A stretch of 38,993 bases of DNA. It comes from Pseudobacteriovorax antillogorgiicola (GTDB taxonomy: Bacteria; Bdellovibrionota_B; Oligoflexia; Oligoflexales; RGVZ01). Position 1 is the stretch's first letter. Each line of letters opens with the position of its first letter. The DNA is taken from NCBI GenBank assembly GCA_945865565.1, contig CAMBEK010000017.1, positions 1 to 38,993 on the forward strand. Reading direction: 5' to 3'. This document shows positions 13,376 through 21,930 of this stretch, piece after piece. The translations under genes and the position numbers were made by a program. The notes under the pieces are model-generated. The model saw only the letters and a list, made by a program, of their open reading frames with translations. It had not been told where the DNA came from and did no database searches.

Positions 13376-13505
13376 GGGCGCACCCCATTGCTAACGTGAC
13401 CAGTGTTCGTGATTTAACTTCCGAATCTTATTGCATTTCGATGCGTATGGCCAAAAAATCATCCACATGAACCTAAGACGTCCCAGAGATTGCGGAGAAA
13501 CCATC

Positions 13506-15545
13506 ATGAAAACCTCGAAATTGCATTTGATTGGCAGATATTTCGCAATGGCGGCTGTCATTGCAACCAGCTTTGCCGCAGCCCGTCCTTTCGTCGCCAT
13601 GGGCGCAGGCCACCAAAAAAAATCCAGCAAGATTCCTGAACGCCGCGAGTTTCCCATAAACAAGTCGATCAATGCCTGTACTGATTTTTATGAATACGCA
13701 TGTTCAGAGGTCATTGATGCATTTGAATTACGGCCGGACCGGTCGCGCCATATCTTTTCCTTTAACGATTCGAGCGAACGGTTGTTGGACAAAAAGAAAA
13801 AATATCTTTCTGGACTGCTGGTCGAGAAGCGCAAGCTTGACGGCCGGGAAAAGGATTTGCGGGATAATTACCAGGCCTGCATGGACAAGGGCGGCAGTAA
13901 AAAAGATGAAACTTCGATTCTTGAAAGGACACTGAAGGAAATCGATACCTTGAAAACTCCAGCCGCGGTTGCCGGGTGGGTGGGTGCCCGACTAGATAGC
14001 GGTGAGTTCAGTGGGTTTGAGATGGACGCCATCGCCAATCAGGATGATCCAACCAGGGAAGATTTTGTGGTTTTGGCGGGAATGAAAACCCTTCCAGAGC
14101 GCAGCTATTACGATAAGGCTGACGTGGTGAAAGATCTCGAGTCTGTCATCTCTGATTTTTTCGCTACCATCAAGCTGCCCGATGCAAAGAAACGGGCAGC
14201 ACGCGTTGTCGCCTTTGAAAAATCGTTTGCCCAGACTTTTCCCTTGCCGGCAGAGATGCGAGAACTTTTTAGTAGCAAGCGTTACATCGACAAGAAGGCG
14301 TTCGCTGCCCGTCATCCGCATATTGCTTTAAGCCCGGCGTTAAACAAAGTGCCAGACGAAACCCTTTTGCGCGACATTGCGCCTGACAACTTTGCCTGGA
14401 TCGATCAGCAGTTTGCCAGTGGGGACATTGAAACCTTGAAGGATTTTTATCGGTGGCATGCGGTCTCAGGGATAATGGACGATGCTTATCCTGAATTTTT
14501 CAAAAAATCGTTTGAATTCAATCGCAAGCATTTGGGTGGGGCAGACAAACGTGCGCCCCGCGATGAGCGCTGCGCTCAATTGGTGATCAACCAGTTTGGC
14601 AAGGAGCTTGATTCAGTATTGATTGACCGTGTGTTCCCGGATTTTCCAACCGAGAAATTCATTGCTCTTGCGGAAAAAGTTCGTGTGGAGATCATTCGCG
14701 GCTTGGAGCAAAACACTTGGCTCGATTCTCAAGGTCGTAAAGGCGCAATTGAAAAAATCAGAACAGCGAAGCTGCAGCTGGTGAAACCTAAGAACGAAGA
14801 GGAATGGGATTTTAACCCATCGGTCAAGTATTCGTCCGTGGCCCGCCATTCAAACGGTTTCAGCCTTGGGCGGGCATTGACGGGCCGGATGTTTGAACGT
14901 CTTGCGAAACCCCGCAATCGCGATCGTTGGAGCATGTCGCCTTTAACTGTAAATGCTTATTACTCGCCCTCAGACAACAAGTTCGTGATGCCCCTTGGGA
15001 TTTTGCAATACCCATTTTACGATCACAAGGCTCCGGATCATGTGAACCTCGGTGCCGTTGGTGCCGTGATCGGGCATGAGCTTGGGCATGGCATCGACGA
15101 CAAGGGTTCGAAGTTCGATAATGAGGGTCGGCTGAAGCAGTGGATGAGTGAATCTGATTTAGTAGAGTTCAAAAAGCGTACGGAAGGTCTCGTCAATCAG
15201 TTCAATGCGATCGGTCACAACGGTAAACTGACGTTGGGTGAGAATATCGGGGATCTCGTTGGTTTGACTTTTGGTTACAAAACGGCCTTCAGCACAGCTA
15301 GCGGATCGGAAGTCATTCCGCCAAATTCGGCCAAGCGGGATTTTTTCATCCAATATGCTCGCGTGTGGTGCGGTGTGGTCCGTCCAAAAATGGCGGAACT
15401 GATGTTGAAGACGGACCCTCATTCGGCCGTAAAGGCTCGAGTCAATGAGCAGGTGAAGCACCAGTTGGGATTCAAACAGGCATTTTCTTGTAGCGATTCC
15501 GACAAAATGGTTTTGAGAGAAGAGCAGCGTATTTCAGTGTGGTAA
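13506..15545 (+). CDS. Secreted M13-family zinc metallopeptidase (PepO/neprilysin-like)
   Basis: This 679-residue M13 endopeptidase begins with a Sec signal peptide (MKTSKLHLIGRYFAM, hydrophobic to ~AAARPFVAMGAG). The mature protein starts with the family's DFYEYACS element. The catalytic domain carries the zinc site HELGH (His524, Glu525, His528) and ENIGD (Glu579 as third ligand, Asp583). It ends with the substrate-binding arrangement RVWCGVV and the HSAVKARVN motif. M13 enzymes cleave peptides on the amino side of hydrophobic residues. ATG at 13506 is preferred over upstream in-frame codons because GGAG precedes it by about 10 nt and the signal peptide begins there. No lipobox is present, so it is probably periplasmic or secreted. 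Confidence 0.93.
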   Translation: MKTSKLHLIGRYFAMAAVIATSFAAARPFVAMGAGHQKKSSKIPERREFPINKSINACTDFYEYACSEVIDAFELRPDRSRHIFSFNDSSERLLDKKKKYLSGLLVEKRKLDGREKDLRDNYQACMDKGGSKKDETSILERTLKEIDTLKTPAAVAGWVGARLDSGEFSGFEMDAIANQDDPTREDFVVLAGMKTLPERSYYDKADVVKDLESVISDFFATIKLPDAKKRAARVVAFEKSFAQTFPLPAEMRELFSSKRYIDKKAFAARHPHIALSPALNKVPDETLLRDIAPDNFAWIDQQFASGDIETLKDFYRWHAVSGIMDDAYPEFFKKSFEFNRKHLGGADKRAPRDERCAQLVINQFGKELDSVLIDRVFPDFPTEKFIALAEKVRVEIIRGLEQNTWLDSQGRKGAIEKIRTAKLQLVKPKNEEEWDFNPSVKYSSVARHSNGFSLGRALTGRMFERLAKPRNRDRWSMSPLTVNAYYSPSDNKFVMPLGILQYPFYDHKAPDHVNLGAVGAVIGHELGHGIDDKGSKFDNEGRLKQWMSESDLVEFKKRTEGLVNQFNAIGHNGKLTLGENIGDLVGLTFGYKTAFSTASGSEVIPPNSAKRDFFIQYARVWCGVVRPKMAELMLKTDPHSAVKARVNEQVKHQLGFKQAFSCSDSDKMVLREEQRISVW

Positions 15546-15567
15546 CTTAACACCGCAGGAGCCGTCA

Positions 15568-16269
15568 TTGATCCAGACTTTATTTAAATCACTTCGTGGT
15601 ACGGACTGGGAACTTCTCACAGGCTTTGTCTCCCCGGCCTTTTTCGATGTCGTTCCAACGATTGGGATGGCGCGTGTTTTCGCTCGCATTATGAAGGATT
15701 ATGCGAGTCCTGGGGAGTTCGAGAAGGCGTTGAGAAAGGCGAAAAAAGCACTGCCAAAAATTCCAGATGGTCTGGGTCAGGATCCAGCGGCCCAAGGGCG
15801 TGCTGTGTTGGAGTTATATTTCCGGCAAATTTTTGATTTTGACTCGGCCGTGTTGGATTTGCGGTCCAGTGCTTTTGATTTCAAGGGTGACAAGGTGGTG
15901 TGGAAACCGAAACCACTTTTTTACGTCTGGGATCAGGAATTTGTTTTGGCGATGCGCCAGTTGTATCGGGGTTTCTATCGTAACGATGAAGTTGAGTATA
16001 TCGCTGGCCTTGAAGCGCTTGACTTGGGTCATGCCAAGGAGACCTTTAAAGCCCATTTTGGCGAAGGGGATCAGAGTTCGATGAAGTTCACTCTGGCAGC
16101 CTTCAAAAAGTCTTTTCAGTCCATTTTTGAATCCTGCAAGAAGAACAAGACGCGATTGCATCCCGACTTTTTTGCCTTGGGTGCCTATTTGCTGTGCCTG
16201 TACGAACATCTTGAGGCCCTCGATGTTCCACTCGATGTAAGGGGAGCCTTCGATGCCGTTGTCGACTGA
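15568..16269 (+). CDS. Conserved-looking protein of unknown function
   Basis: This 233-residue, probably cytoplasmic protein has no signal peptide or membrane segment. It is rich in aromatic and charged residues, for example YFRQIFDFDSAVLDLRSSAF and LAMRQLYRGFYRNDEVEYIA, and appears mostly helical. No family or catalytic motif is recognised. It starts with TTG at 15568, preceded by AGGAG about 8 nt upstream, 22 nt after the M13 peptidase gene. Its last 17 nt overlap the start of the SDR-GPx gene, so it belongs to that operon. The coding call rests on good length, a Shine-Dalgarno site and tight packing. Confidence 0.75.
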   Translation: MIQTLFKSLRGTDWELLTGFVSPAFFDVVPTIGMARVFARIMKDYASPGEFEKALRKAKKALPKIPDGLGQDPAAQGRAVLELYFRQIFDFDSAVLDLRSSAFDFKGDKVVWKPKPLFYVWDQEFVLAMRQLYRGFYRNDEVEYIAGLEALDLGHAKETFKAHFGEGDQSSMKFTLAAFKKSFQSIFESCKKNKTRLHPDFFALGAYLLCLYEHLEALDVPLDVRGAFDAVVD

Positions 16270-18253
16270 ATCCGTGACGCCACCGCGTCGCTTGACTGTT
16301 GCTATTGCGGGAGCCAGTGGATTCGTTGGACGGGCGCTCATTGACGCCTTGTCGTCCCATTGCGACATTATTGCGCTGAGTCGTGATCCAGGCAGGGTGA
16401 AGGATGTGAAAGCTGGGAACGAATCGTCAGATCCGGTGATCCAATGGCGGCGTTGTGATTTATTCTCAGCGCTGGAGACCGAAACTGCCCTCGCTGGCTG
16501 CGATATTGCCATTTACCTGGTTCATTCGATGTTGCCCTCCGCTAGCTTGACGCAAGGTAAATTTGAAGACCTTGATTTAATGATTGCCGACAACTTCGGA
16601 CGGGCGGCTAAAGCCTGCGGTATCCGCCGCATCATCTATCTCGGGGGAATCATTCCCGCAGACGATCTATCCCGTCATCTTGCGAGCCGGCTCGAAGTTG
16701 AGGAGGTTCTTGCGGAGTACGGCGTTCCCCTGGTGGCGTTGCGCGCCGGACTGGTGGTGGGCCGCAATGGATCATCCTTTGACATGATGCGCAAACTTGT
16801 GGAACGCCTGCCGCTGATGGTTTGTCCGAAATGGACCAGAACCAAAAGTTGTCCTGTGGCGATTGATGACGTGGTTGCAGCGATTGCCAGAGTTGTCAAC
16901 GATCATGGTTTGGCGCCGGGTGCCTACGACCTTGGCGGCTCAGAGACAATCACTTACTTGGAAATGATGAAAGCAATGGCCCAAATGATGGGCAAACGTC
17001 GTTTGATGATTCCGGTTTTTCTATTCAGTCCGAAATTATCCCGGCTCTGGGTTCGATTGGTGACCGGTGCACCAAGGGAACTGGTTGCGCCCCTGGTCGA
17101 GAGCCTTCGCCATGAGATGATTCCCAGGGATCAATATATTTTTAACCATTACGGGATTGCACCCGCCTCATTTCGCGAGGCGATTGCCAAGGCAATTGCC
17201 GGTTCTTCCGTGGCGTCTCCGCGCAAGGTCCCCAATGTCGTGACATCGGTAAAAACAGTTTGTTCCGTTCAGCGCCTCCCGCTCCCGGCGGGAAGGTCAG
17301 CGCATTGGGCTGCCGACCGTTACGCGCATTGGCTGATCCAATTTTTCTTTCCGTTTATCGTCGTAGAGCGGACTGGGGATGGATCGTTGGTGTTCAAGTT
17401 TCGTTTCTTTTTTAAATTCACCGAAATTAGCCTGCTCTACCTGACGTATGTCGCGAAAAGGAGCACCGCCCAACGGCAGTTGTTTTTTATCACAGGTGGT
17501 GTGCTGACAGATAAAAAGGCCAAGAAAGTTGGTCGATTTGAATTTCGCGAAGTTCTGAAAGGCGCCAGTTTTATGGCGGCTATTTTTGACTATTCTCCAG
17601 CGCTGCCGTGGTGGGTTTACAAAAACACGCAGGCGTTCGTTCATTTGTTTGTGATGCATTCCTTTCGGCGTTACTTGAAGCGTGTCGCAGGGCGAGCTGC
17701 GACACTGTTGCTTTTTGCCCTGCCGATTCTGTCCGGTATCACACCGGACTATGCCGTTGCGCGGGTATCGACCAACCTTTATGACCTTTCTGCTGAATCT
17801 ATTGATGGGACCTTAGTCCCACTGTCAAAGCACAAGGGGAACGTCTCGCTAGTCGTTAATACGGCTTCTCGTTGTGGTTTTACGGATCAATACAGAGACC
17901 TCCAGGCTGTTTATGAAAAATACAAGTTGAAGGGGTTTGTGGTCCTTGGGTTTCCAAGTAATGATTTCTCGATGCAGGAGCCCGGTTCAAACAAGGAAAT
18001 AAAAAAATTTTGTGACCTTAATTTCAAAGTTAAGTTTCCCATGTTTGCCAAGGGAAAGGTTCTTGGGCCTTCTAAACAGCCCGTTTACGGTTTTTTGACC
18101 AGTGGCAAAAAATTCAACGGGGAAATTAGTTGGAACTTTGAGAAATTTCTGGTCAACCGCCGGGGTGAAGTTGTTGCGCGTTTCGATCCAGTGGTGCAGC
18201 CCATGGATCCAAAAGTGACTAAAAGGATCGAAGAGCTCCTTTCTACCAAGTGA
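16253..18253 (+). CDS. Fusion: atypical SDR (NmrA/DUF2867-like) + glutathione peroxidase
   Basis: This single 666-codon frame has two parts. Residues ~14-470 are an atypical SDR with the Rossmann motif VAIAGASGFVGRALIDAL, followed by a C-terminal region ending LPWWVYKNTQAFVHLFVMHS, like the end of DUF2867-type SDR proteins. Residues ~505-666 are a glutathione peroxidase: NTASRCGFT (peroxidatic Cys541, not Sec), FPSNDFSMQEPGSN and WNFEKFL. The second catalytic position, usually Gln, is Asp, and the resolving-Cys position is Ser, as in many bacterial homologues. Between them, residues 475-503 look like a signal peptide: a basic stretch, then ATLLLFALPILSGI, then AVA. No stop separates the parts. 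Internal starts (ATG 17654, TTG 17675) exist but lack a Shine-Dalgarno. The main ATG at 16253 has AGGGGAG upstream. Confidence 0.85.
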   Translation: MPLSTESVTPPRRLTVAIAGASGFVGRALIDALSSHCDIIALSRDPGRVKDVKAGNESSDPVIQWRRCDLFSALETETALAGCDIAIYLVHSMLPSASLTQGKFEDLDLMIADNFGRAAKACGIRRIIYLGGIIPADDLSRHLASRLEVEEVLAEYGVPLVALRAGLVVGRNGSSFDMMRKLVERLPLMVCPKWTRTKSCPVAIDDVVAAIARVVNDHGLAPGAYDLGGSETITYLEMMKAMAQMMGKRRLMIPVFLFSPKLSRLWVRLVTGAPRELVAPLVESLRHEMIPRDQYIFNHYGIAPASFREAIAKAIAGSSVASPRKVPNVVTSVKTVCSVQRLPLPAGRSAHWAADRYAHWLIQFFFPFIVVERTGDGSLVFKFRFFFKFTEISLLYLTYVAKRSTAQRQLFFITGGVLTDKKAKKVGRFEFREVLKGASFMAAIFDYSPALPWWVYKNTQAFVHLFVMHSFRRYLKRVAGRAATLLLFALPILSGITPDYAVARVSTNLYDLSAESIDGTLVPLSKHKGNVSLVVNTASRCGFTDQYRDLQAVYEKYKLKGFVVLGFPSNDFSMQEPGSNKEIKKFCDLNFKVKFPMFAKGKVLGPSKQPVYGFLTSGKKFNGEISWNFEKFLVNRRGEVVARFDPVVQPMDPKVTKRIEELLSTK

Positions 18254-18259
18254 AACAAT

Positions 18260-20257
18260 ATGACTAAGAAGATCATCGAAGAAGAAGGCGTCGAGCGACC
18301 TCTGGTTGCGCACCGGATCACGGAGCTGGCCCACGCGATCATGCACCACAAGAAGGCCTATTACTCGGGACATCCCGAGATTTCTGATGCTGCCTATGAT
18401 GCGCTTGAAGATGAGTTGAGGTCAATGTCGCCTGATCATCCCGTCTTGGAGATTGTCGGGGCTGGAACGTTGCCCTTCGCTGCCGCTGGAGCCGTTGCTC
18501 GCAAGGTGGAGCATCGCACTCCGATGTTGTCTTTGGACAAGACATATAATCTGGCTGACCTACATCACTGGGTTGGTGGCAGGCCCGTCATGGGGACGCT
18601 CAAAGTCGATGGCAACAGCCTGAGTATTGTCTACGAGGGTGGACGATTGGTTTTGGCAAAGACCAGGGGCAATGGACGGGTTGGCGAGGATGTTACGGAA
18701 AAGGCGGTCTGGATTTCAGATATCCCCCGGACTCTTACGGAGGGCATGGACGCGGAGGTCCGCGGCGAAATTTATTGCACCGAGGGAAATTTTTTACGCC
18801 TTGCGGACGAGATGGTCCAATTGGGTCTCGATCGGCCAACGAATCCCCGCAACATCGTGGCTGGACTCTTGGGCCGAAAAGCCCACTTTGAACTGGCCCG
18901 CTATTTCTCTTTTTTTGCTTTTGATTTTATTCCTGCCAACGGGAAATCTCCCGGTTTTAAAACCGAAGTTGAGAAATTTAAATGGCTTGGCAAGGTGGGT
19001 TTTTCACTTCCACATCCAAAACGATTGTCTGATCCCGCTGAGATTGAAGGCTACCTTGATTACGTCAAGGCTTTGATCGCAGAAGACGAAATTGGATTGG
19101 ATGGTGCTGTTTTTAGTTACGATGACCTGGCGTTGCATGACGAGATGGGACTCACGGCGCATCATCCGCGCTATAAGATGTCATTCAAATGGCAGGGGCA
19201 GACTGCCGTTTCCGTCATCAAGGAGATCAGCTGGGCAACATCCCGGTTGGGTATCGTGACTCCAGTTGCGGTGATTGCTCCAGTTTATTTAAGTGGCGCA
19301 TCCATCACCAATATAACTTTACACAACGCCGCTCATGTCAAAGCTTACAACTTAAAACCAGGAGACCGGATCGAGATCGTCCGATCAGGGGAGGTCATCC
19401 CGAAGTTTCTTGGTGTGGTAGAGCCGGCTGCTGGTGACTATCGTTGGCCAGAAAATTGTCCGGAATGCGGGTCCCTTTTGGTGAGTGACAGCATTCGCTT
19501 GAAATGTCCAAATGAGACGGCCTGTCCTGCACAGCGCCTTGGAGCGATTTTGAATTGGATTCGCTGCGCAGAGATTGACGATCTTAATGAGAAGCGTCTT
19601 CTTCCATTGATGGATTCCGGTTTGGTCAAGTCAATGGCAGACCTCTACAGGCTGCAAGAAAAGGACTTTCTGATCATTCCGCAGACCCGGGAAAAAATGG
19701 CGTCAAAGCTTTGTAAGAATATCCAGTCGTCAAAAGATCTTCCTCTGGCGTCTTTTTTGAATGGCCTTGGTATCGAGGGCGCTGGGCGCACAACATGGGA
19801 AAAGCTTCTCGAGCATTTTCACGGTTTGGATGGGGTTTTAAAGGCAACAGCCGATGAGATCGGCAAAATAGAAGGGTTTGCGGAAAAGTCCGCAGCCCAA
19901 GTCGTCGATGGGCTGACTGCCCGCCGGGGTTGGATCAAAGACCTCCTTGAAGCAGGGGTGAAGCCTTTTCAGGCGGATGCTGTTCCAAAGGAGGGGGTGT
20001 TGTCGGGCCTGCAATTCGTAATCACTGGTGCCCTTTCTGTGCCGCGCGCTGAAATTGAGGACGCTATAAAAATGGCTGGTGGTAAGCTGTCGGCCTCTGT
20101 TTCGAGAAATACCTATGCGGTTGTGACTGAGGAGCCGGATTCGGGATCAACAAAAATGAAAAAAGCACGTGAACTCGGCGTGAAGATCTGGAGTGAACGG
20201 CAGCTTCGCAGTGCGATTGCGGATAAGGCAAACATCGAGGGTGGGAACAACCTATGA
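18260..20257 (+). CDS. ligA: NAD-dependent DNA ligase LigA (divergent)
   Basis: This NAD+-dependent DNA ligase of 665 residues has the complete domain set. The NAD-binding Ia domain contains YYSGHPEISDAAYDALEDEL. Adenylation Lys115 lies in TLKVDGNS. The OB fold is followed by the zinc finger CPECG...CPNETACPAQ, HhH repeats around FLNGLGIEGAG, and a C-terminal BRCT domain from ~590. Several positions differ from typical LigA: TRGNGRVGED instead of TRGDG, and NPRNIVAGLLGRK instead of NPRNAAAGSLRQ. It could therefore be a second, specialised ligase. ATG at 18260 is 6 nt after the SDR-GPx stop. Its own stop overlaps the next start (ATGA). Confidence 0.92.
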   Translation: MTKKIIEEEGVERPLVAHRITELAHAIMHHKKAYYSGHPEISDAAYDALEDELRSMSPDHPVLEIVGAGTLPFAAAGAVARKVEHRTPMLSLDKTYNLADLHHWVGGRPVMGTLKVDGNSLSIVYEGGRLVLAKTRGNGRVGEDVTEKAVWISDIPRTLTEGMDAEVRGEIYCTEGNFLRLADEMVQLGLDRPTNPRNIVAGLLGRKAHFELARYFSFFAFDFIPANGKSPGFKTEVEKFKWLGKVGFSLPHPKRLSDPAEIEGYLDYVKALIAEDEIGLDGAVFSYDDLALHDEMGLTAHHPRYKMSFKWQGQTAVSVIKEISWATSRLGIVTPVAVIAPVYLSGASITNITLHNAAHVKAYNLKPGDRIEIVRSGEVIPKFLGVVEPAAGDYRWPENCPECGSLLVSDSIRLKCPNETACPAQRLGAILNWIRCAEIDDLNEKRLLPLMDSGLVKSMADLYRLQEKDFLIIPQTREKMASKLCKNIQSSKDLPLASFLNGLGIEGAGRTTWEKLLEHFHGLDGVLKATADEIGKIEGFAEKSAAQVVDGLTARRGWIKDLLEAGVKPFQADAVPKEGVLSGLQFVITGALSVPRAEIEDAIKMAGGKLSASVSRNTYAVVTEEPDSGSTKMKKARELGVKIWSERQLRSAIADKANIEGGNNL

Positions 20258-21321
20258 CAAAGTCTCTGGATTCATACAGCATTGCGATGGAGAAACTCGA
20301 GCGTGGGACGCCTCCTGTTGAGGGATCCGGCTTTTTGGGTGCGGACCTCGATCCGAAAGAGGCAAAGGTGATTTTGATCCCGTCCCCATGGGACGTGACA
20401 ACGTCCTACCGGCCCGGAACATCGCGCGGTCCGGAGGCCATTATTGCGGCAAGCCACCAGCTCGATTTGGACGATGGAAGTTTCGGTAAAGTTTACCGGG
20501 CCGGAATATCTTTTCTTCCGAACCCGGATTTCATTGAACGCATGAATGCTTTTTTGCGGATTCGTGCTGAGAAGGTCATGGCTGATTTGTCGGAAGGTGA
20601 AGCTGACCCGGGCGACTTGGCGGCCGTTAATGAAGGGTCGGCGGCATTGAACAAATACGTGCGGGATGCTGCTGTTGAGGCGCTGGAAAGTGGAGCTATT
20701 GCCGCCGTTGTTGGGGGCGACCATGCGTCACCTCTAGGTTTAATTCAGGCCCTTGGGGATAAGCATCCGGATGGGTTTGGTGTCCTGCACTTTGATGCCC
20801 ATCATGATCTGCGCAATGCTTACGAAGGGTTTCAATTTTCCCACGCATCTATTTTTCACAACGTCATGGAATCCGTGCCGGCGGTGTCGCGATTGGTTCA
20901 GGTCGGGATCCGGGATTTTTGCGAGGAAGAACGCGATTACATGACCGCCCTGGGTTGGCGGGGATCTGTTTTTTATCAGCGGGATTTGTTTAAACGCAAG
21001 GCTCGAGGTGAGACTTGGGACACAGTGTGCAAAGATATCGTGTCGCAACTGCCACCGAAGGTTTACGTGTCATTTGACATCGATGGGCTTGATCCCGTTT
21101 GTTGCCCATCGACCGGCACGCCCGTACCAGGTGGATTGTCATTTGACGAGGCGGTCTATCTTCTCGAATGCCTTGCAGAATCTGGTCGGAAAATCGTTGG
21201 CTTTGATTTGTGTGAGGTTTCTCCCGATCCAAATGGCGAGAGCGAGTGGGATGCCAACGTCGGGTGCCGGGTGCTCTATAAACTTTGCGGACTTGTCGCA
21301 AAGAGCAGTAATTTGATTTGA
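20254..21321 (+). CDS. Ureohydrolase (agmatinase/arginase family)
   Basis: This binuclear-manganese ureohydrolase has 355 residues and all metal-ligand motifs: GGDHASP (His157), DAHHD (Asp181, His183, Asp185) and SFDIDGLDP (Asp275, Asp277). The family hydrolyses guanidino compounds to urea (agmatine, arginine, guanidinobutyrate) or formiminoglutamate to formamide. It is about 50 residues longer than E. coli agmatinase. The extra length includes a charged helical insert at ~93-135, typical of agmatinase-family proteins of unclear specificity. The substrate cannot be fixed from sequence. ATG at 20254 overlaps the ligA stop (ATGA), which indicates translational coupling. Confidence 0.88.
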   Translation: MTKSLDSYSIAMEKLERGTPPVEGSGFLGADLDPKEAKVILIPSPWDVTTSYRPGTSRGPEAIIAASHQLDLDDGSFGKVYRAGISFLPNPDFIERMNAFLRIRAEKVMADLSEGEADPGDLAAVNEGSAALNKYVRDAAVEALESGAIAAVVGGDHASPLGLIQALGDKHPDGFGVLHFDAHHDLRNAYEGFQFSHASIFHNVMESVPAVSRLVQVGIRDFCEEERDYMTALGWRGSVFYQRDLFKRKARGETWDTVCKDIVSQLPPKVYVSFDIDGLDPVCCPSTGTPVPGGLSFDEAVYLLECLAESGRKIVGFDLCEVSPDPNGESEWDANVGCRVLYKLCGLVAKSSNLI

Positions 21322-21330
21322 GGTGCTTTT

Positions 21331-21930
21331 ATGTCGGTCTCGTCGGCAAGATTTGAAATGCCAAAACTCCAAAAGCCTGGAGCCGGCCTGCCTTTTTTTG
21401 AGTGGCTGGTTTCGAAGTATTGGATCATCAATCGACTCCCGTACAAGATGTCATGGGATGAAACTCAAGCTTTCTTGGATCGGGAGAGCCAGAAATCCAT
21501 TGAGATCTTTGAGTCAATTCCGTTGGTTTTGCGTGAAAAAAGAATTTTAATCGACCGGATTCCTGGCATCGAGGATTCCTCCAGATATTGGTCGGCAGCT
21601 ATGGTTTTGGAGCACTTGGTCATCGTCGGATCGCTGATGACGGAAGCGATGGTCTTGCTCAGCCGCGACATTGTCCCAGAATCCTCGGTTGGAATCGCCG
21701 ATGTTAAGCCATTTGGTAGTACATCTTCTGAGCAAGTCCTGGCGCTATTCAAGGATTTTCTGACCACAACGAGCCATCGGATGGCGGCAGAAGTTCAAAG
21801 TCGAGAATCAAAAATAAAACTTGCGCATCCATGGTTCGGGCCAATGGATATCCAGCAGTGGCATTGGCTCATGGCCGCACATCATCGCGTTCATCGCAAG
21901 CACCTTGAGGCAATCAGGGATAACTTTTAA
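21331..21930 (+). CDS. DinB-like four-helix-bundle protein
   Basis: This 199-residue cytoplasmic protein has a DinB/YfiT-like layout, with long helices and three dispersed His-bearing segments: MVLEHLVIVGS, an HPWFGPMDIQQWHWLM segment and AAHHRVHRKHLE near the C-terminus. These are consistent with a metal site. DinB-superfamily proteins include bacillithiol/mycothiol-dependent transferases and many of unknown activity. The start at 21331 is supported by GAGG 7 nt upstream, and it follows the ureohydrolase stop by 9 nt. It is the last plus-strand gene before a convergent gene 6 nt away. Confidence 0.7.
   Translation: MSVSSARFEMPKLQKPGAGLPFFEWLVSKYWIINRLPYKMSWDETQAFLDRESQKSIEIFESIPLVLREKRILIDRIPGIEDSSRYWSAAMVLEHLVIVGSLMTEAMVLLSRDIVPESSVGIADVKPFGSTSSEQVLALFKDFLTTTSHRMAAEVQSRESKIKLAHPWFGPMDIQQWHWLMAAHHRVHRKHLEAIRDNF

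Follow-up and report, generated by a model that had tools for sequence, protein, structure and literature searches.

An open reading frame of 666 codons with an ATG start (16253-18253, forward strand) runs without a stop from an atypical SDR oxidoreductase into a glutathione peroxidase (GPX) in the 38,993-nucleotide stretch of DNA analysed here (the window; Table 1). A first-pass annotation had proposed that the two enzymes share one frame, and the Pfam matches (NAD(P)-binding families at residues 15-249, GSHPx at 509-615) bear this out. The fused gene overlaps its upstream neighbour by 17 nt. This neighbour (15568-16269) is COQ8-like in predicted fold; the window copy has no Pfam or NCBIfam match, and a homologue matches ABC1 weakly.

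Table 1. Features of the fused SDR-GPX locus (positions in the window; residues numbered along the fused protein).
Feature	Position	Strand	Remarks
Upstream COQ8-like gene	15568..16269	+	233 aa, TTG start; predicted fold is the C-lobe of COQ8/ABC1 atypical kinases, no N-lobe
Fused gene SDR::GPX	16253..18253	+	666 aa; strong Shine-Dalgarno AAGGGGAG ahead of the ATG; kept in G001
Atypical SDR, NAD(P)-binding, residues 14-320	16292..17212	+	GxxGxxG at G20/G23/G26; fold as in NDUFA9-type complex I subunits and QOR2
SDR C-terminal domain, residues 333-447	17249..17593	+	strand-helix-six strands, then a helix
SDR C-terminal tail, residues 460-481 (QAFVHLFVMHSFRRYLKRVAGR)	17630..17695	+	homologous to the end of the standalone G003 SDR; gives the basic n-region
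Candidate internal ATG (Met468)	17654..17656	+	no Shine-Dalgarno; aligned relatives of the SDR C-terminal domain all have Met here
Candidate internal TTG (Leu475)	17675..17677	+	no Shine-Dalgarno
Internal signal-peptide-like segment, residues 482-503	17696..17761	+	ends AVA (AVG in G001)
Glutathione peroxidase domain, residues 509-666	17777..18250	+	Cys541 (17873-17875), Cys587 (18011-18013), Gln575, Trp627, Asn628

The SDR half carries the glycine-rich Rossmann NAD(P) motif G20-A-S-G23-F-V-G26 and matches two Pfam families above their cut-offs over residues 15-249 (PF13460, 36.2 bits; PF01370, 35.1 bits). By inspection, the YxxxK motif of classical SDRs is absent from its usual helix (residues 141-154, SRHLASRLEVEEVL or thereabouts), and we therefore class the protein as an atypical SDR, as the first-pass annotation had done. 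By both sequence and fold, residues 9-320 best match NDUFA9-type SDRs, represented by the complex I 39-kDa subunit and E. coli QOR2 (Z about 25-26 for NDUFA9-type chains in a structure search), although identity is just 15-22% and, while that group includes a complex I subunit, nothing found places the window SDR in complex I. Unlike them, it has an additional C-terminal domain (residues 333-447), missed in the first reading, which ends just ahead of the joint between the two enzymes. The order of secondary-structure elements in its AlphaFold model is, by inspection, compatible with a helix-grip fold; no sequence match was found in Pfam, NCBIfam or PDB, and a structure search with the whole-protein model, which barely sampled this domain, listed none.

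The GPX half matches PF00255 with 123.4 bits against a cut-off of 27 (residues 509-615), and solved GPX structures align over residues 505-666 (Z 28.7). By position, Cys541 is the peroxidatic and Cys587 the resolving cysteine, and Gln575, Trp627 and Asn628 complete the active-site set, in agreement with the earlier description of a complete peroxidase built around Cys541. The presence of Cys587 suggests a thioredoxin-type two-Cys cycle. The fused GPX clusters with a leader-bearing standalone GPX of a congener (G002; 90/90), and most of its standalone relatives in the order (G002, G004, G006, G016, G023, G027, G038 and G033) have leader-like N-terminal segments. The other GPX of the window genome (C3) has no leader.

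The fused frame recurs in G001 (public MAG contig CANJZQ010000053.1, Oligoflexales), which is a second species of the genus and was assembled independently of the window genome (G000). Its frame has an identical length of 666 codons, 94% amino acid identity, no indels and no stops, and the surrounding gene order is the same. Two objections raised at the outset, that a sequencing error hides a stop at 17640-17760 and that relatives all have two separate genes, thus fall away. An assembly or sequencing error that masks a stop or frameshift at the joint is very unlikely because two independent assemblies of diverged species carry the uninterrupted frame, with synonymous differences spread throughout, even though G001, and probably the window genome as well (44 contigs, 90% complete), was assembled from a metagenome. 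At the level of sequence, we regard the fused SDR-GPX frame as confirmed.

Both halves are under purifying selection between the two species (dN/dS about 0.11 for each), whereas the joint (residues 470-508) evolves fast, with dN/dS of about 0.84 from few sites, and is therefore free of strong constraint. At synonymous sites, the GPX half has diverged further (0.45) than the SDR half (0.16), but we rejected separate histories of the two halves as an explanation, as neighbouring genes are equally variable (0.09 to 0.56), which points to regional patchiness. Adjacent genes within 13431-21930 differ six-fold in their synonymous divergence from G001 (0.09 for ligA, 0.56 for arginase), a pattern suggestive of patchy recombination.

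Synteny across the slot, which is flanked by an M13 peptidase gene and ligA, extends to four congeners and provided the comparison of the joint in close relatives that had been called for. In the window genome and G001, the slot holds the COQ8-like gene and the fused gene, followed by ligA, with neither a stop nor an indel at the joint of G001. G003 has the COQ8-like gene and the SDR alone (stop at codon 485, after YLTRIAGRSEK) before ligA, and G002 has only the GPX, complete with a start, ribosome-binding site and leader (MNLMLRHFTYFLAILIFISGFGGALSDPAAA) of its own, before ligA. The separate halves in the same slot of sister species mean that the origin and fate of the fusion can be traced. 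In G003 (L034:9100-9130), the motif AAGTGA lies six bases 5' of the ligA start; in the window, the GPX gene ends in this motif at an identical spacing, and the end of the G002 GPX gene matches it too. We read AAGTGA in G003 as the likely scar of a GPX deletion; judging from this short motif, the two genes may already have been fused, or at any rate adjacent, before the split of G003.

Full fusions were present in 2 of the 58 genomes of the class (G000 and G001, both related freshwater bacteria), in which the SDR family is common, and a phylum-level search gave the same set. A contig search for homologues spanning both domains, as proposed earlier, returned G001 as the sole full-length match. 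Two further candidates were rejected: the G033 C13 match (query residues 439-664) is a plain GPX gene, and a 745-codon frame in G053 is an N-terminal ORF extension overlapping the COQ8-like gene. No SDR-GPX fusion was described among the literature covered by our search. The protein is a rare new domain combination built from known parts. Judged from these comparisons, the fusion is genuine and lineage-restricted, and it is recent because it is found only in this species pair and congeners carry the standalone halves.

The joint resembles a signal peptide, as had been noted before. No other 12-mer of the protein is as hydrophobic as residues 485-496 (LLLFALPILSGI; mean Kyte-Doolittle 2.48), which lie between the basic stretch RRYLKRVAGR and AVA at 501-503. 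Assessed by hydropathy, charge and the -3/-1 rule alone, the segment has the features of a Sec signal, namely a basic n-region, a hydrophobic core and small residues at -3/-1, the last of which are kept in both species (AVA in the window, AVG in G001). SDR homology between the window and G003 extends up to codon 481/482, exactly where the leader core starts; for this reason, we assign the basic part to the SDR tail and the hydrophobic part to the GPX. The internal 'signal peptide' is thus the leader core of the peroxidase itself, with the n-region now supplied by the SDR and the original GPX start lost.

A cleavable signal is likelier than a permanent membrane helix, because AVA/AVG follows a core of only about 12-15 residues. 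The best 19-mer at the joint has a mean hydropathy of 1.78, borderline for a membrane helix, substitutions are tolerated there and AlphaFold models residues 460-489 as one continuous helix, all of which would suit a segment that is too short or too occluded for export, or that is left uncut, so that one bifunctional chain results, either soluble or a type II membrane protein. We consider such a chain unlikely, as both species retain the AxA/AxG site and, within the order, most standalone relatives of the fused GPX bear leaders. AlphaFold predicts the SDR and GPX domains with confidence but residues 493-503 with low confidence, which would fit a linker or cleavage region.

The peroxidase might instead start internally. 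Both in-frame codons named in the first-pass annotation, ATG 17654 and TTG 17675, are present just ahead of the basic stretch, and MHSFRRYLKRVAGRAATLLLFALPILSG would make a good signal peptide; two genes would then share one frame, with an ordinary exported GPX made also, or mainly, from one of these codons. Estimated Shine-Dalgarno energies are -8.3 kcal/mol at the fusion start and -9.4 kcal/mol at the start of the standalone G002 GPX, against +0.9 kcal/mol at the internal ATG and -1.7 kcal/mol at the internal TTG, and no Shine-Dalgarno precedes either internal codon in either species (G000 or G001). This absence is not decisive, since some annotated-looking genes of the window also lack the element. 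The Met at 17654, however, is invariant across 16 aligned relatives of the SDR C-terminal domain, which argues that Met468 serves the SDR rather than initiation. An internal start therefore seems improbable, and of the two alternatives offered at first, it is the two-compartment protein that gains support, from the conserved frame, purifying selection, a leader of the exported GPX lineage and internal starts devoid of a Shine-Dalgarno, whereas the internal start remains unsupported.

We favour a model, with a probability of about 0.58, in which one chain is made from 16253, the SDR stays inside and an internal signal is cleaved to leave a free periplasmic GPX. Neighbouring genes for an SDR and an exported GPX would have fused by loss of the SDR stop and the GPX start, bringing the Sec signal core of the GPX into frame behind the SDR tail. 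A single product would be translated from the strong start, and its SDR part would fold in the cytoplasm. The Sec machinery would then insert the hydrophobic residues 482-496, behind RRYLKRVAGR, in an N-in/C-out orientation, and signal peptidase I would most likely cut after residue 503. The predicted products are a membrane-tethered SDR inside and a free two-Cys (Cys541/Cys587) peroxidase outside, both with presumed activities. Several points weigh against this model: the fusion occurs in only two genomes, the joint evolves fast, and a large folded N-terminal domain could impede use of an internal signal. That the locus captures a two-compartment polyprotein soon after its birth, pairing a cytoplasmic NDUFA9-like SDR with a periplasmic peroxidase through an internal cleavable signal, is a tentative reading to which we give slightly less than even odds. 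If true, such a polyprotein would fix the SDR:GPX ratio and possibly tether the SDR to the membrane. Fusions of a cytoplasmic to an exported enzyme are unusual because the second enzyme needs its own export signal.

A single gene giving two proteins through an internal signal sequence cut by signal peptidase is known from the Bradyrhizobium FbcH cytochrome b/c1 precursor, although the first half of FbcH is an integral membrane protein and that of the window protein is a soluble-type SDR. Coq11 is an NDUFA9-like SDR and Coq10 a START-type protein. Fungal Coq10-Coq11 fusion proteins exist (PMC11541779). They offer a second case of fusion with an NDUFA9-like SDR, and the window gene lies next to a COQ8-like gene, but we take the likeness only as a lead: the fungal proteins include no peroxidase, and the START likeness of window residues 333-447 lies in secondary-structure order only, with no sequence match. 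Shewanella oneidensis PgpD is a periplasmic GPX that occurs beside a cytoplasmic paralogue; both were active when purified, the PgpD leader exported PhoA, and PgpD belongs to an oxidative-stress regulon with photolyases and a short-chain dehydrogenase gene (PMC4336711). The window genome likewise has an exported GPX lineage and a leaderless GPX, and relatives of the window genes lie beside photolyase genes in G011. In contrast to the window GPX, PgpD has a gene to itself and carries its signal peptide at the N-terminus; searches found no ChrR in the genus and no DNA photolyase in the window genome.

Unfused SDR and GPX genes lie near each other in three families. In G016, G023, G027 and G038 they are convergent neighbours; in G004 the COQ8-like gene separates them, at a distance of about 0.8 kb; and in G011 they share a cluster with photolyase, DPRP and DUF2805 genes. 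Given about two GPX genes in a genome of ~4 Mb, we estimate that proximity within 5 kb would arise by chance in just about 0.5% of genomes, and the association is therefore unlikely to be fortuitous. The COQ8-like gene directly adjoins the SDR gene in many Oligoflexia, and relatives' clusters also contain photolyases, an FAD amine oxidase and a COQ7/rubrerythrin-like protein. Quinone protection or photo-oxidative protection is a fair guess at the role, one drawn from relatives because of the missing ChrR and DNA photolyase; ChrR control of the locus was discarded on the same count. Read as a Rosetta stone, the fusion hints that the NDUFA9-like SDR and its COQ8-like partner act in peroxide or photo-oxidative defence, in agreement with the side-by-side unfused genes of other families.

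Two clusters in relatives differ in composition. One, in G011 (L057:723-6768), comprises the SDR, the COQ8-like gene, DPRP (photolyase-related), a DNA photolyase, DUF2805 and a leaderless GPX, and looks like a light or oxidative-damage island. The other, in G006 (L037:5285-9057), brings together the COQ8-like gene, a small COQ7/rubrerythrin/AOX-like protein, an exported GPX and a further SDR-like gene, the NDUFA9-like SDR being encoded elsewhere in that genome.
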